Source: Pseudomonadota bacterium
GTDB taxonomy: Bacteria > Desulfobacterota > Syntrophorhabdia > Syntrophorhabdales > Syntrophorhabdaceae
Direction of reading: 5' to 3'
DNA: 64,000 nt
Assembly (NCBI GenBank): GCA_026388275.1
Contig: JAPLKB010000011.1
Span: 1 to 64,000, forward strand
A program made the position numbers and the translations under genes. Below the pieces are notes generated by a model. The model was not told the origin of the DNA, searched no databases, and was given only the letters and a program-made list of their open reading frames with translations. Shown here piece by piece: positions 2,088 to 49,934 of the stretch (position 1 is its first letter; every line of letters begins with the position of its first letter).

Positions 2088-3863
2088 ATGAGTAGACTGG
2101 AAAAGGAAAAATCTGCTTACCTGCAACATGCAGCACAACATAAAATAGATTGGTATCCCTGGTCTGAGGAGGCATTTGAACGCGCGAAAAAGGAAGACAA
2201 GCCTGTATTCCTGAGTTCAGGTGCTATCTGGTGTCATTGGTGCCATGTTATGGCAAAGGAGAGCTTTGAAGACGAAGAGGTGGCAGCTCTGCTGAATGAA
2301 TATTTTATTGCTGTCAAGATTGATCGGGACGAAAGACCGGACATTGACAGGAGGTATCAAAGGGCTCTTGCAGTAATGGGCTTAAGCGGCGGCTGGCCGC
2401 TGAGTATATTCCTGACTCCTGAAAAGAAACCTTTTTTCGGCGGTACATATTTTCCGCCTGTTGAGGGATTTGGAAGGCCCGGTTTTAAATCCCTCCTGAA
2501 GGCAATCGGAACTATGTATCAGCAGAAAAAAGAATCGGTGAATGAGAACAGCCAGGAAATTCTCCGTCATATGAAACAGGAGAAGCTTGAACCGGGTAAT
2601 CTGGATTTATCGATGCTTGACGAGGCGAAAAAAAGCATCCTTTCAGATTTTGATCCAATTCATGGAGGATTCGGAAAGGCACCTAAATTCTCAATGCCCG
2701 GGGCAATGGAATTTCTCATCAGGAGGTATTCAACCGATAAAAACAGTGATCTTGAAAATACGATTAAGAAGACCCTTATATCTATGGCAAGGGGTGGTAT
2801 TTATGACCAGCTTGCCGGCGGCTTTCACCGGTATTCGACGGATGAGGAATGGATTATCCCACATTTCGAGAAAATGGCCGATGATAATGCCTGGCTTTTA
2901 CGGAATTATGTCCACGCATATAACCTTTTCGGCGATGAATCCTTTAAGGAGGTTTCGGAAGGCATAGTTGGTTTTTTATTAAACGAGCTTTCAAGCCCGG
3001 ACGGAGGGTTTTTTTCGAGTCAGGATGCGGATATTACGCCTGATGATGAAGGCGGGTATTTTCTATGGAAAGATGACGATTTCAGGAGAATCCTGAATGA
3101 CGATGAATACAGGATTCTGTCCCCTTATCTGCTTCACGAAAAGGGTGCCATGCGCCATGATGTTTTAAAAAGGGTGCTTTATATTACAGAAGAAATGGAG
3201 GGAATTGCCCGGAAAGACGGTATAGATATTGAAAAGGTAAGTAAAATTATTGAGATAGGAAAAACAAAACTGCTTTTGGAGCGCGAAAGGAGGGAGAAGC
3301 CTTTTGTGGACAAAGCTTTATATACGTCGCTCAATGGTATGCTTATTTCAGCTTTTTTTGAAGCATACAAAGCCTTTAAAGACGAAGAAATAAAGGAGTT
3401 TGCATTAAAAAGCCTTGAAAAGATTCTGGCTGTTAATTTTACTGACAAAGGACTTTTCCATGCTGAGGGCATCCATGCTCTCCTTGACGATTATGTCAAT
3501 CTTATTGATGCATTCATAGGAGCGCATAAGGCCACCGGAAACATCGTATATCTCAATCAGGCAGATGAGTTCATGAAGGTATGCATCGCCAAATTCTGGG
3601 ATGACGAAACAGGGGGTTTTTTTGACACCGAAGAAGATGTGATCGGCACAAGGCTCAAAGTACTGGAAGATTCCCCGCATCCTTCAGCCAATTCTGTGGG
3701 CATTATAAATCTCATTGAACTTTCTAAAATGCCGGGAAACGAAGAATATCTTAACTATGCGGAGAAGGCTCTGAAATGTTTTTCCATGATTGCCCAACCC
3801 ATGGGAATTCATGGGGGTTATTACTACTGCGCGCTGGATATGTTCTTTCATGAAGGCAATTGA
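2088..3863 (+). CDS. DUF255 (YyaL/SPATA20-like) thioredoxin-domain protein
   Basis: A 591-residue member of the DUF255/YyaL family: an N-terminal thioredoxin-like domain followed by an alpha/alpha toroid resembling sugar epimerases. The thioredoxin-type motif is W48-C-H-W-C-H53, and PHFEKM and family-typical GG-rich segments follow in the toroid. There is no signal peptide, so it is probably cytoplasmic. The ATG at 2088 has a good GAGG Shine-Dalgarno. Length is close to the family norm, slightly short. It stands alone between a repeat island and the phoH promoter. Its biochemical role is not established, although the redox-like CxxC suggests thiol chemistry. Confidence 0.9.
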   Translation: MSRLEKEKSAYLQHAAQHKIDWYPWSEEAFERAKKEDKPVFLSSGAIWCHWCHVMAKESFEDEEVAALLNEYFIAVKIDRDERPDIDRRYQRALAVMGLSGGWPLSIFLTPEKKPFFGGTYFPPVEGFGRPGFKSLLKAIGTMYQQKKESVNENSQEILRHMKQEKLEPGNLDLSMLDEAKKSILSDFDPIHGGFGKAPKFSMPGAMEFLIRRYSTDKNSDLENTIKKTLISMARGGIYDQLAGGFHRYSTDEEWIIPHFEKMADDNAWLLRNYVHAYNLFGDESFKEVSEGIVGFLLNELSSPDGGFFSSQDADITPDDEGGYFLWKDDDFRRILNDDEYRILSPYLLHEKGAMRHDVLKRVLYITEEMEGIARKDGIDIEKVSKIIEIGKTKLLLERERREKPFVDKALYTSLNGMLISAFFEAYKAFKDEEIKEFALKSLEKILAVNFTDKGLFHAEGIHALLDDYVNLIDAFIGAHKATGNIVYLNQADEFMKVCIAKFWDDETGGFFDTEEDVIGTRLKVLEDSPHPSANSVGIINLIELSKMPGNEEYLNYAEKALKCFSMIAQPMGIHGGYYYCALDMFFHEGN

Positions 3864-8776: not shown

Positions 8777-9781
8777 ATGAACATATTCAGCCTTTTTTTA
8801 ATTGGATTTATACTTGGACTGACCGGCGCAATGGCGCCCGGCCCTCTTTTAACAATAACCATAGGTGAATCTGCAAAACGCGGCGGCATAGTTGGCCCCA
8901 TGGTTGTACTTGGCCATGGTATTCTTGAATTTTTTTTGCTTATTTTAATTATATTCGGCCTGGGGAGTATTCTCAATAATAAGATTATTTTTTCCATCAT
9001 AGCCTTTGCAGGCGGCATTATCCTTATATATATGGGTTACAGCACTATTAAAGAACTCAAGAATTATCAATTATCGGCAACATCATCATCTTCACAAAAG
9101 GGGCTGCATCCTGTTATTTCAGGTATTGTTGTGAGTCTTTCAAATCCATACTGGTTTATATGGTGGATTACAATCGGCATGGGTTATGTGATGTTTGCAA
9201 GAGGCCTTGGCATCAAAGGCGTTCTCGCTTTTTTTGTCGGCCACATACTTTCCGATCTTGTTTGGTACAGCTTTATCTCCTATGGTATCCAGTTTGGAGG
9301 CAGGTTCTTCAGCATAAAAGTAATCAAGACCATCCTGCTGGTATGCAGTATATTTTTGATATGCTTCGGGGGTTACTTTATTGTTAAGGGCTGCGGATTA
9401 CTATTACCTGGGCTTACGTCGCCCCCTCCGCCAGCCAAGCTGTCGGAGCCTCCCCTTCTCGCTCACCGTGTGAGCTATTTAGCACTTGGACGATTTGCTC
9501 ATTTACCTGGGCTTACGTCGCCCCCTCCACCAGCCAAGCTGTCGGAGCCACCCCCTCTCACTCACCTTGTGAGCTATTTAGCTCTCGGACGATTTGCACA
9601 TTTACCGGGACACCCACAAGCGGGTACCCGGTCGCCCCCTCTCTTTTCTGTATACACGAAGGATGTCCGCTCACTTATGTTCGCTTGGACGTCCGCTTGT
9701 GCTGGGACGCAAGTAAATGCATTTACGTCCTGCGTCCGAAGGAGTATAGCGACTGAACGTCCTTCGTCCGTCGGGTGGTAA
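8777..9781 (+). CDS. LysE/RhtB-type exporter with repeat-derived C-terminal extension
   Basis: Residues 1 to about 208 form a normal-length LysE/RhtB-family exporter: six hydrophobic segments and the family opening GAMAPGPLLT, with a conserved SNPYW motif in the middle. Members export amino acids or other small cationic solutes. After about residue 209 the frame enters a 99-bp direct repeat and other palindromic DNA, adding about 125 Pro/Leu-rich residues that contain two near-identical 33-residue copies opening with LPGLTSPPPPAKLSEPP. The natural stop seems to have been lost to repeat insertion. The transporter part is convincing. Whether the tail is made, tolerated or inactivates the protein cannot be seen. 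Confidence 0.75.
   Translation: MNIFSLFLIGFILGLTGAMAPGPLLTITIGESAKRGGIVGPMVVLGHGILEFFLLILIIFGLGSILNNKIIFSIIAFAGGIILIYMGYSTIKELKNYQLSATSSSSQKGLHPVISGIVVSLSNPYWFIWWITIGMGYVMFARGLGIKGVLAFFVGHILSDLVWYSFISYGIQFGGRFFSIKVIKTILLVCSIFLICFGGYFIVKGCGLLLPGLTSPPPPAKLSEPPLLAHRVSYLALGRFAHLPGLTSPPPPAKLSEPPPLTHLVSYLALGRFAHLPGHPQAGTRSPPLFSVYTKDVRSLMFAWTSACAGTQVNAFTSCVRRSIATERPSSVGW
9407..9604 (+). repeat. 99-bp tandem direct repeat, two copies
   Basis: Copies run 9407-9505 and 9506-9604, each beginning cctgggcttacgtcgcccc and ending at atttgctcattta or atttgcacattta. The period (99 bp, 33 codons) is a multiple of three, so the exporter frame stays open through both. The copies differ at about a dozen positions. 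Confidence 0.9.
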
Positions 9782-47250: not shown

Positions 47251-47880
47251 ATGACTGAACTTAATGTAAAAAGATTCCTAACTGCCATGAAAAACATGGG
47301 AATTGATTCCTATGTTTCCGGCAGGGAGAATATGCTCACGCTCCCTCTTCTCCATAAAACAGTAAAAGGGTGCAGAAAATGTTCCCTTGCTGATACCCGA
47401 CAGAAAGTGGTATTCGGAGAAGGTAACAGTAAATCAAGGATTGTATTCATCGGAGAAGCTCCGGGTGAAGAAGAAGATATCAAGGGAAGGCCCTTTGTAG
47501 GAAGAGCAGGAAAACTTCTTGACAAGATGATCGAAGGGATCGGATTAAGGCGCGAAGAGGTATACATTTGTAATGTTCTGAAATGCAGGCCGCCAAACAA
47601 CAGAGACCCCAAACCGGATGAGGCTGAAGTCTGCAAACATTACCTTATATCCCAGCTTGAGATTATAAGCCCTAAAATTATATGTACGCTTGGTAAACAT
47701 GCCTATAATACATTGCTTGGTGTCGATGAAAGCATAATCAGGATAAGAGGAACACTTACCAGATACAAGGGGATAAAACTGCTTCCCACCTACCACCCCT
47801 CCTTTCTGCTTCGTAACGCAGGCAGGATGCAGGAAGCTATCGGAGATATGGAGACGCTGAAGCATCTCCTCAGGGAGTAA
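47251..47880 (+). CDS. Family 4 uracil-DNA glycosylase (Fe-S)
   Basis: A 209-residue family 4 UDG that removes uracil from DNA. Motif 1 is GEAPGEEED and the HPS-type motif is TYHPSFLLR. Four cysteines for a 4Fe-4S cluster are visible: CRKC near residue 40, one in CNVLKC and one in IICTLG. The short leader (about 1-35) is absent from minimal members. Part of its 3' coding sequence is duplicated at 49754-49787, 1.9 kb downstream. Confidence 0.92.
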   Translation: MTELNVKRFLTAMKNMGIDSYVSGRENMLTLPLLHKTVKGCRKCSLADTRQKVVFGEGNSKSRIVFIGEAPGEEEDIKGRPFVGRAGKLLDKMIEGIGLRREEVYICNVLKCRPPNNRDPKPDEAEVCKHYLISQLEIISPKIICTLGKHAYNTLLGVDESIIRIRGTLTRYKGIKLLPTYHPSFLLRNAGRMQEAIGDMETLKHLLRE

Positions 47881-47914
47881 TTCCATGCAGCCCTTTTCCC
47901 ATTAGAAGTCATTT

Positions 47915-48034
47915 CAATTCTAAATCAAGGATGAAATCAAGGCGGCAAGGAAGAGGCGACGTAGGCGTACGGTAATAGTACGTCGTAGGAGCAGATGACG
48001 AAGCCAACGATGATAGCGCCTTGATGTAGAATTG
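47915..48034. repeat. 120-bp palindromic (MITE/REP-like) element
   Basis: Outer 16-bp arms (caattctaaatcaagg at 47915-47930 and its complement with one mismatch at 48019-48034) flank inner inverted segments, including cgacgta...gtac facing gtacgtcg. No coding is visible. The form is that of a small non-autonomous palindromic element. It lies just after the UDG gene. Confidence 0.7.
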
Positions 48035-48097
48035 GAATAAGAAGGTTGGAAGTTGGGAACTGAGAACCGCATAAAACTCCAAAGCGTGGAGACATTC

Positions 48098-48718
48098 TCA
48101 GGCAGCCTTTAAATACGCCAGGGGAGTTCTGTCTTGATTGACTGACGTAAGGACTGCCACTAACCGTAGGCAATTCTCTATGGAATGATCCATTCTCGCG
48201 GCCGGAAATATTCCGAATGATATAATCCATGGTGATCTGACAAAGACCGCGTTGCTGCGGTTAAAACCACCCTTGCGAGCACGAGAGTTTGGAGCCGCTA
48301 CTGTTTTGTATAATGGAATGTTCACTGTAAGAGCTCCCGATGTAATCCATGATGATTTCACAAAGATCCTTGGAGCCTTAGCTGTTTTGTATAATGGCAT
48401 ATTCACCTTAAGAGCTCCCGTTTTAATCCACGGTGATCTCACAAAGACCTTTGGAGCCGCTACCTGTCTGTAACCAAGCATGTTCACTGTAAGAACTCCT
48501 GATGTAATCCATGGCGATCTCACAAAGACCTCGTTGCTGCCGTCTGATCTTTTTGTCTTTTCCGGCAATGCGACCTCCGTATGTATCGCTTTTTGGCCCA
48601 GTCTGCTATAAAAGTCAGCCAAATAGTCGATGTTTTGGATGTGTGCCATATGACCGTTTCCATTGCCTCCGATCTTTATCTCTGTGGTTTCGTTTAATGC
48701 TCTGATTTGTGTTCTCAT
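48098..48718 (-). CDS. Unknown protein with tandem 27-residue repeats
   Basis: A 206-residue protein I do not recognise. Residues 1-60 form a unique leader-like part without a signal peptide. From about 64 come three contiguous 27-residue repeats, then a 12-residue insert and a truncated fourth. Each opens (V/I)FV(R/K)S(P/S)WI, passes through (T/K)-(S/T)-G-x-L-x-V-N and ends x-A-P. Differences between copies are often third-base (tcg/tca, cca/ccg, aac/aat), suggesting selection on protein. The ATG has a strong AAGGAGG, 6 nt away. It is divergent from a LysR regulator at 48841. A multi-core peptide precursor or a repeat scaffold are both possible; no modifying enzyme is adjacent. Confidence 0.7.
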   Translation of the reverse strand: MRTQIRALNETTEIKIGGNGNGHMAHIQNIDYLADFYSRLGQKAIHTEVALPEKTKRSDGSNEVFVRSPWITSGVLTVNMLGYRQVAAPKVFVRSPWIKTGALKVNMPLYKTAKAPRIFVKSSWITSGALTVNIPLYKTVAAPNSRARKGGFNRSNAVFVRSPWIISFGIFPAARMDHSIENCLRLVAVLTSVNQDRTPLAYLKAA

Positions 48719-48792
48719 GATATCCTCCTTCTTTGTTCTATCTTTCTATTATGAAGTATAGAAGATAAAACTTGACCGTGCAAGGCAATTAG

Positions 48793-48810
48793 TGTTAAAA
48801 GCTATTAACA
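48793..48810. promoter_or_regulatory. Candidate LysR operator
   Basis: TGTTAA-N6-TTAACA is a perfect 6-bp dyad in the 122-bp gap between the repeat-protein gene and the lysR gene. Its AT-rich T...A layout is typical of LysR-type sites. A second imperfect dyad (atctttctat / atagaagat) lies near 48745-48772. Confidence 0.45.
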
Positions 48811-48840
48811 TAATATTAATACCTAACCTGGAGGTCAGTT

Positions 48841-49737
48841 ATGATTGTGAACATGAATCAGCTTCGTTCCTTCTATACGGCAGCTAAACTAAACAGCATT
48901 ACGAAAGCTGCTCAGGCCCTTATGGTGACGCCACCGGCGATTACCATGCATATCAAAAGGTTCGAAGAGAACATCGGGGTTCGGCTGATTGTCCGGGATG
49001 GGAACTCCATTCGGCTGACCGGCACCGGAGAGGGCGTGATGGAAAGAGCAGATCTGATTTTTCAAGAGATCCATGAAATGGAGGGCTATCTGGAGGACGT
49101 GTCCTCCGGCAGGTCAGGAGATCTGCACGTGGGATGCCCTGAAGCCCCCTTGAGAAATCTCATGCCCCTTATTGAGACTTTTAAGAAAACCTATCCAGGC
49201 GTAAGGATAATCCTTGACCAGGGTTCTAATGCGGAGATGATTAAAAGCATAATTGATCACCGGAACGAACTTGCAGTTATCCGGTACAGCCCCAACAACA
49301 GCAGGCTTAAGACCAAGGTCTTGTGGCAGCATGATATTGTCCTCATTGCCTCACCGAAGAGCGTCCATTGGCCGGGTTCTGAAATCTCTGTCATGCAATT
49401 ATCGCAGATTCCGTTGGTTATCAAACGTGAAGGATCTGCAGCAAGAGAGGTGGTTCTTGAGTATCTCCGGAAATTCAAAGTGACTCCGTTGATTGCGGCG
49501 GAATCGGCAAGTACTGCCCTTCTCAAGGAATTAGTACAACAGGACAACGGTATAGGGTTCATACAACGAGGCGCTGTAGAGGAGGAACTGGAAAACGGAA
49601 CTCTGAGATTGATCCGGATTATTGAAGGATTTCCCGTCATCGAAGATGGGATTGCCTATGCAAACCGCAGGGAACTTTCACCCGCGGCTTGGGCCTTTCT
49701 CAGGCTCATTGATACATCATGGCCATTTAAGTCATAG
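48841..49737 (+). CDS. LysR-family transcriptional regulator
   Basis: A 298-residue LysR-type regulator. The N-terminal winged helix contains NQLRSFYTAAKLNSITKAAQ, then VTPPAITMHIKRFE, followed by the linker helix and a periplasmic-binding-like effector domain (about 95-290). GGAGG is just before the ATG; an internal ATG at 48853 is the other candidate. It is divergent from the repeat-protein gene, its likely target by the usual LysR rule, and sits between that gene and a duplicated UDG fragment. Confidence 0.92.
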   Translation: MIVNMNQLRSFYTAAKLNSITKAAQALMVTPPAITMHIKRFEENIGVRLIVRDGNSIRLTGTGEGVMERADLIFQEIHEMEGYLEDVSSGRSGDLHVGCPEAPLRNLMPLIETFKKTYPGVRIILDQGSNAEMIKSIIDHRNELAVIRYSPNNSRLKTKVLWQHDIVLIASPKSVHWPGSEISVMQLSQIPLVIKREGSAAREVVLEYLRKFKVTPLIAAESASTALLKELVQQDNGIGFIQRGAVEEELENGTLRLIRIIEGFPVIEDGIAYANRRELSPAAWAFLRLIDTSWPFKS

Positions 49738-49753
49738 TTGAATTTACCCCATT

Positions 49754-49787
49754 TACCATCCCTCCTTTCTGGCAGGATGCAGGAAGC
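49754..49787 (+). repeat. Duplicated fragment of the UDG 3' coding end
   Basis: This matches 47791-47837 inside the UDG gene apart from a 13-base deletion and one or two substitutions: tacca-ccctcctttctg, then gcaggatgcaggaagc. It follows the LysR stop by 16 bp, so the palindromic element, repeat-protein gene and lysR lie between the two copies. Confidence 0.75.
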
Positions 49788-49934
49788 AAAAGGAATGCGG
49801 ATTACGGAAAGAAATGTAACTAACTGTATTGCCTTGTTCTCTGCCTCTACTTAGATATTCAGGTCTTCGAACATAATCTATACAGATGACATCACATTTT
49901 AATATTCCATAGTATGAGTATAAAGTCTCGAATT

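Follow-up and report, generated by a model that had tools for sequence, protein, structure and literature searches.

The question raised by this locus is what kind of gene is represented by an open reading frame built largely of tandem 27-residue units and divergently oriented from a LysR-type regulator gene in the window, the whole 64,000-nt stretch of DNA analyzed here. An earlier note on this DNA had described a minus-strand gene with an AAGGAGG site and a unique leader preceding 27-residue units, and both descriptions are confirmed by the 206-codon ORF, its ribosome-binding site, and its anatomy of a 63-residue N-part, three full units, and a terminal half-unit (Table 1). A unique C-tail follows the half-unit up to residue 206, and a conserved tail of 60 residues stands C-terminal to the unit array. 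No signal peptide is seen in the protein upon inspection by eye, so it is not an obvious surface protein. As to expression signals, a sigma-70 promoter for the gene at a TATACT hexamer spotted by eye was not called by the scan, and terminator-like sites such as the one listed occur about equally often by chance.

Table 1. Features of the repeat gene, the divergent LysR-type regulator gene, and the region between them, in window coordinates.
Feature	Position	Strand	Basis or remark
Repeat gene	48098..48718	minus	ORF of 206 aa, ATG start, TGA stop; orthologue in G001; G001 homology ends at stop codon
Ribosome-binding site AAGGAGG	48724..48730	minus	Same sequence in G001
Unique N-part, residues 1-63	48530..48718	minus	Includes 55-nt stretch identical in G001 (48591-48645)
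Unit 1, VFVRSPWITSGVLTVNMLGYRQVAAPK	48449..48529	minus	Residues 64-90
Unit 2, VFVRSPWIKTGALKVNMPLYKTAKAPR	48368..48448	minus	Residues 91-117
Unit 3, IFVKSSWITSGALTVNIPLYKTVAAPN	48287..48367	minus	Residues 118-144
13-residue spacer SRARKGGFNRSNA, residues 145-157	48248..48286	minus	G001 counterpart is LFARRGGFDGSNA
Terminal half-unit VFVRSPWIISFGIFPAARM, residues 158-176	48191..48247	minus	Repeat detection
PfkB-kinase-like C-terminal end without GRGDT motif, residues 168-195	48134..48217	minus	Profile comparison
Weak terminator-like stem-loop and T-run	48077..48091	minus	Scan; directly past repeat-gene stop codon
Divergent intergenic region	48719..48840		122 nt, 88% identical to G001, no indels
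Probable LysR operator CAATTAGTGTTAAAAGCTATTAAC	48786..48809		Motif read by eye, upstream regions side by side
LysR-type regulator, 298 aa (PF00126 + PF03466)	48841..49737	plus	Domain search

A single true orthologue, G001:C88, was found among 99 related genomes searched, of which G001 is the only other genome of the same genus. Its product of 152 aa is 71% identical and shorter by exactly two units (54 aa = 2 × 27), such that the full units number three in the window gene and one in the G001 gene; both species have an open ORF, and the difference between their arrays amounts to complete 27-residue units. The G001 gene is also divergent from an orthologous LysR gene, the sequence of which includes a run of Ns, and it is the one homologue that provides the varying repeat number beside LysR expected of a family. 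Homology between the two genomes at the DNA level extends from position 48100, in the repeat-gene stop codon, to 49742, 5 nt beyond the LysR stop codon, and there is no likeness just outside these limits, where the window carries a uracil-DNA glycosylase gene and an M15-type peptidase gene and G001 carries other genes. Because the homology is bounded by both stop codons and the flanks are unrelated, the repeat gene and LysR belong together, and the DNA comparison shows them to be conserved as a pair, a two-gene cassette delimited at either end by a stop codon. No further orthologue was returned when profiles were run against the order and the class, represented by the same 46 genomes, or against 395 genomes from the phylum. 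Relatives of the protein were likewise found neither in two scans of GTDB contigs and two of viral contigs, in which short exact peptide patterns leave little tolerance for divergence, nor by tblastn in phages and plasmids, nor in Pfam, NCBIfam, PHROGs, or PDB, a match to PDB 8bad (E 0.018, 31 residues) being taken as chance. A phage or plasmid origin of the gene was rejected, given the lack of a match in the phage and plasmid searches.

The array itself is described by TRF as 3.0 copies of period 81 (score 274), and a DNA repeat search returns three copies of 81 nt, which share 79-81% identity with the reference copy, and a terminal partial copy of 44 nt with 89% identity to it. The ORF frame is the only one that is stop-free in all three full units, which none of 2000 base shuffles achieves, and no further copies of the 27-residue unit, in-frame or broken, were found elsewhere in the window genome; for these two reasons a non-coding repeat is rejected. 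The finding that only this frame is open in every unit, and that units are gained or lost in-frame, makes the gene look to be coding. Within the window, unit-versus-unit differences pool to 17 synonymous and 39 non-synonymous changes (dN/dS 0.71 pooled; 0.45, 0.94, and 0.97 for individual pairs), distributed 12/22/22 over the codon positions. The earlier claim that many of the differences between copies are synonymous is therefore only partly right, synonymous changes being outnumbered by non-synonymous ones. Between units 2 and 3, dS is 0.24, below the divergence of the two species, and this suggests, without proving it, that expansion of the array postdates the split of the two species.

Comparison of the orthologues yields a dN/dS of 0.49 overall, 1.1 for the N-part, and 0.33 for the C-part, relative to 0.10 for LysR in the same two genomes, and the repeat gene accordingly looks to be under weak constraint. 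The expectation of a dN/dS below 1 holds only weakly, for the units, the orthologue pair, and the C-part, but fails in the N-part. Permutation tests of constraint give P values of 0.06 for the C-part and 0.34 for the whole gene, neither significant, so that protein-level constraint is suggestive rather than proven. Synonymous divergence in the N-part is 0.11, below the 0.32-0.38 of LysR (Fisher P 0.02-0.04), and the coding N-part includes a run of 55 nt (48591-48645) identical in the two species, for which the LysR synonymous divergence is about 0.35; together, these observations indicate that the N-part may be constrained at the level of the DNA itself. The conserved 5′ part has no Rfam match, and a structured RNA in it was rejected upon fold z-scores of −1.7, −1.2, and 0.6, which are not convincing. 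The codon-usage score of the repeat gene is 0.046, like that of spurious ORFs and the lowest among the 51 window ORFs of at least 150 codons, relative to a real-gene mean of 0.27; the N-part alone scores 0.21.

Divergence from the LysR gene and a conserved shared intergenic region, two features expected of a LysR target, are both present at this locus, and synteny and conservation lend good support to the putative link between repeat gene and LysR. By-eye reading of related LysR loci finds a similar AATTA..TTAA..AATTAAG motif at the position of CAATTAGTGTTAAAAGCTATTAAC, which is probably the LysR operator. Three LysR relatives have a divergent gene for a PfkB-family kinase, namely G041:C10 (75% identity, the best LysR match outside the orthologues), G000:C26 (70%), and G041:C69, and in other relatives the divergent slot holds a PEP-utilizer mobile-domain protein or UPF0261 rather than PfkB. 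Across the LysR subfamily (L017, L041, L018-L023, L043), of which there are several copies per genome, the divergent neighbor alternates among PfkB kinase, UPF0261, and the small PEP-utilizer mobile-domain protein. The locus also points to an uncharacterized LysR subfamily tied to PfkB, UPF0261, and PEP-mobile-domain genes, apparently constituting an uncharacterized pathway; nothing was found in the literature on a UPF0261-PfkB pathway.

Several weak genome-search matches of the repeat gene converge on the C-terminus of PfkB-family kinases. A profile built from 12 such kinases, chosen after these matches had been seen, scores 15.2 bits against the window C-part (P 5e-7) and 12.2 bits against that of G001 (P 4e-6), relative to a best score of 6.5 bits among 9000 shuffles, and profile-profile comparison of the C-part with PfkB by hhalign gives a P of 1.9e-6. 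At the DNA level the C-part is 70-72% identical to several PfkB genes over 55-65 nt, with E values of 0.04-0.15 that alone are not significant. The match spans only 28 residues with 36% identity, and a Pfam search at E up to 10 finds no match to PF00294 in either orthologue or in pieces of them. The alignment starts immediately past the kinase GRGDT motif; the catalytic G(R/A)GDT motif itself is absent, the position reading SPWIIS in the window gene and SPWITS in its G001 orthologue, so the repeat protein is not a kinase. Neither this kinase-like tail nor the partners of the LysR subfamily at other loci figure in the earlier note. The position divergent from LysR that the repeat gene shares with the PfkB genes named above is independent support for a relation, and residues 168-195 appear to be related to the C-terminal helices of PfkB-type kinases on statistics that are fair but not decisive. 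The repeat protein differs from those kinases in lacking the motif and most of the kinase and in having a unique N-part and units. An origin of the N-part in the N-terminal end of PfkB was rejected (hhalign P 0.23), as was a relation to the PEP-mobile-domain protein that occupies the same slot in other LysR relatives (P 0.55). Weak matches outside PfkB (G009:C174, G017:C35, G006:C200), which lie mostly within other genes or are interrupted by stops, were dropped.

A possible intermediate is found at G041:C69, where DNA homologous to the promoter-to-start region of the repeat gene (74% over 78 nt; E 8e-9, from a small comparison of two loci) continues into a short frameshifted ORF between LysR and PfkB (L068, about 2400-2812, minus strand). 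This ORF begins with MRTQ, as does the window gene, and encodes a stretch containing W and a tail that looks helical; it differs in being frameshifted and in having at most one unit, and its protein similarity beyond MRTQ is not significant (shuffle P 0.03-0.32). A weak match to it, G045:C269, was dropped alongside the other weak non-PfkB matches. More broadly, the L068 region at about 2400-2950, comprising a LysR gene without its first ~52 codons, the short ORF with its frameshift, and a PfkB gene that is intact, looks to be in decay. One hypothesis drawn from these alignments is that a short ORF upstream of PfkB became fused to the kinase tail. The same materials could also yield a decaying remnant, in which deletion joined a short ORF upstream of PfkB to the 3′ end of the kinase gene, tandem slippage inflated the product, and the frame stays open mostly by inertia, selection keeping only LysR, the operator, and the 5′ region. 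The codon usage resembling that of spurious ORFs, the dN/dS of the N-part and the units, the frameshift in the related-looking G041:C69 ORF, and the loss of the kinase motif would fit such decay, but the low dN/dS of the C-part, the lack of any stop or frameshift in two species, the strictly in-frame change in unit number, and the end of homology at the stop codon do not, and we consider this alternative doubtful, with an appreciable chance of being correct.

A single-sequence AlphaFold model of the repeat protein is strand-rich, with strands over the units, but has a pLDDT of only 49, and Foldseek with this low-confidence model finds nothing significant (best E 0.64). The beta-repeat scaffold proposed in the earlier note is compatible with this model. 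A stand-alone scaffold of this kind, unconnected with sugar metabolism and acquired together with LysR as a mobile cassette, is favored by the strand-rich model, the cassette-like boundaries, and the degenerate copy of the glycosylase 3′ end on the far side; the kinase-like tail, the low model confidence, and the lack of a visible signal peptide or obvious surface-protein character argue against it, and we regard it as quite unlikely. The other idea put forward at the outset, a multi-core ribosomal peptide precursor whose N-part would be a leader and whose units would be cores excised and modified, finds no support. Multi-core RiPP precursors share with the repeat gene the layout of a unique N-part and then repeats, but the repeat gene differs from them in having no maturation genes and in the conserved 60-residue tail after its units. 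Because the flanking genes are wholly different in the window genome and G001, beside it there is no conserved gene for a modifying enzyme, protease, or exporter, LysR being the only conserved neighbor; the closest radical-SAM genes within the window are 7-10 kb away; and no known precursor-family signature is matched in Pfam, NCBIfam, or PHROGs. We consider such a precursor very improbable.

The reading that we prefer, at about even confidence, is a young, fast-evolving protein gene occupying a LysR target slot, switched by LysR and encoding a beta-module repeat protein with a kinase-related tail. Acting at the intergenic operator common to both genes, LysR and its metabolite would turn on its expression. 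As to molecular function, we infer a non-secreted, non-enzymatic repeat protein in which (V/I)FV(R/K)SPWI...VN modules would form beta strands, and which might take part in the same sugar- or PEP-related pathway as a binding or tuning partner, for example via its kinase-like tail. The young LysR-regulon gene would have captured or inherited this tail and expanded the probable beta-strand module, the number of units shifting by recombination between the 81-bp copies. Counting against this reading are the shortness of the PfkB match and the choice of its profile after the fact, the poor codon usage, the N-part dN/dS of about 1 together with the non-significant permutation tests, the low-confidence structure model, and the LysR relatives whose divergent gene is not PfkB. 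The fuller scenario, in which the gene was born in the LysR regulon from a short upstream ORF and a PfkB tail, acquired its 27-residue modules, and tunes the pathway of its kinase parent, seems to us unlikely as a whole.

Taxonomically restricted (orphan) bacterial genes have been described, for example, for Bacillus (PMC10003748). The repeat gene is similar to these in being confined to one genus in the searched genomes, in being short, and in having atypical codon usage, and differs in its internal 27-residue array and dedicated divergent regulator. It is a real gene, ordinary in kind as a lineage-restricted repeat gene and interesting in its possible origin. If the kinase-tail origin is true, the locus provides a compact example of how a new bacterial gene arises within a regulon that already exists, and it offers three states for comparison, namely the decayed-looking cousin in G041, the short form in G001, and the expanded form in the window; if it is false, this is one more lineage-restricted repeat gene.

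Further observations concern the surroundings of the cassette. Beyond the cassette, the uracil-DNA glycosylase gene has a degenerate copy of its 3′ end (47785-47844 and 49748-49794; two 24-nt pieces, 88% identity), as if this gene end had been duplicated by cassette insertion. Downstream of the repeat gene, a dispersed repeat of ~130 nt (47911-48040) has 36 matches in the window genome and 19 in G001 and looks like a MITE- or REP-like family. At 9407-9580 a 75-nt sequence occurs twice, 99 nt apart, and shares 89-91% identity with DNA that lies downstream of the G001 repeat gene; it is another dispersed element.
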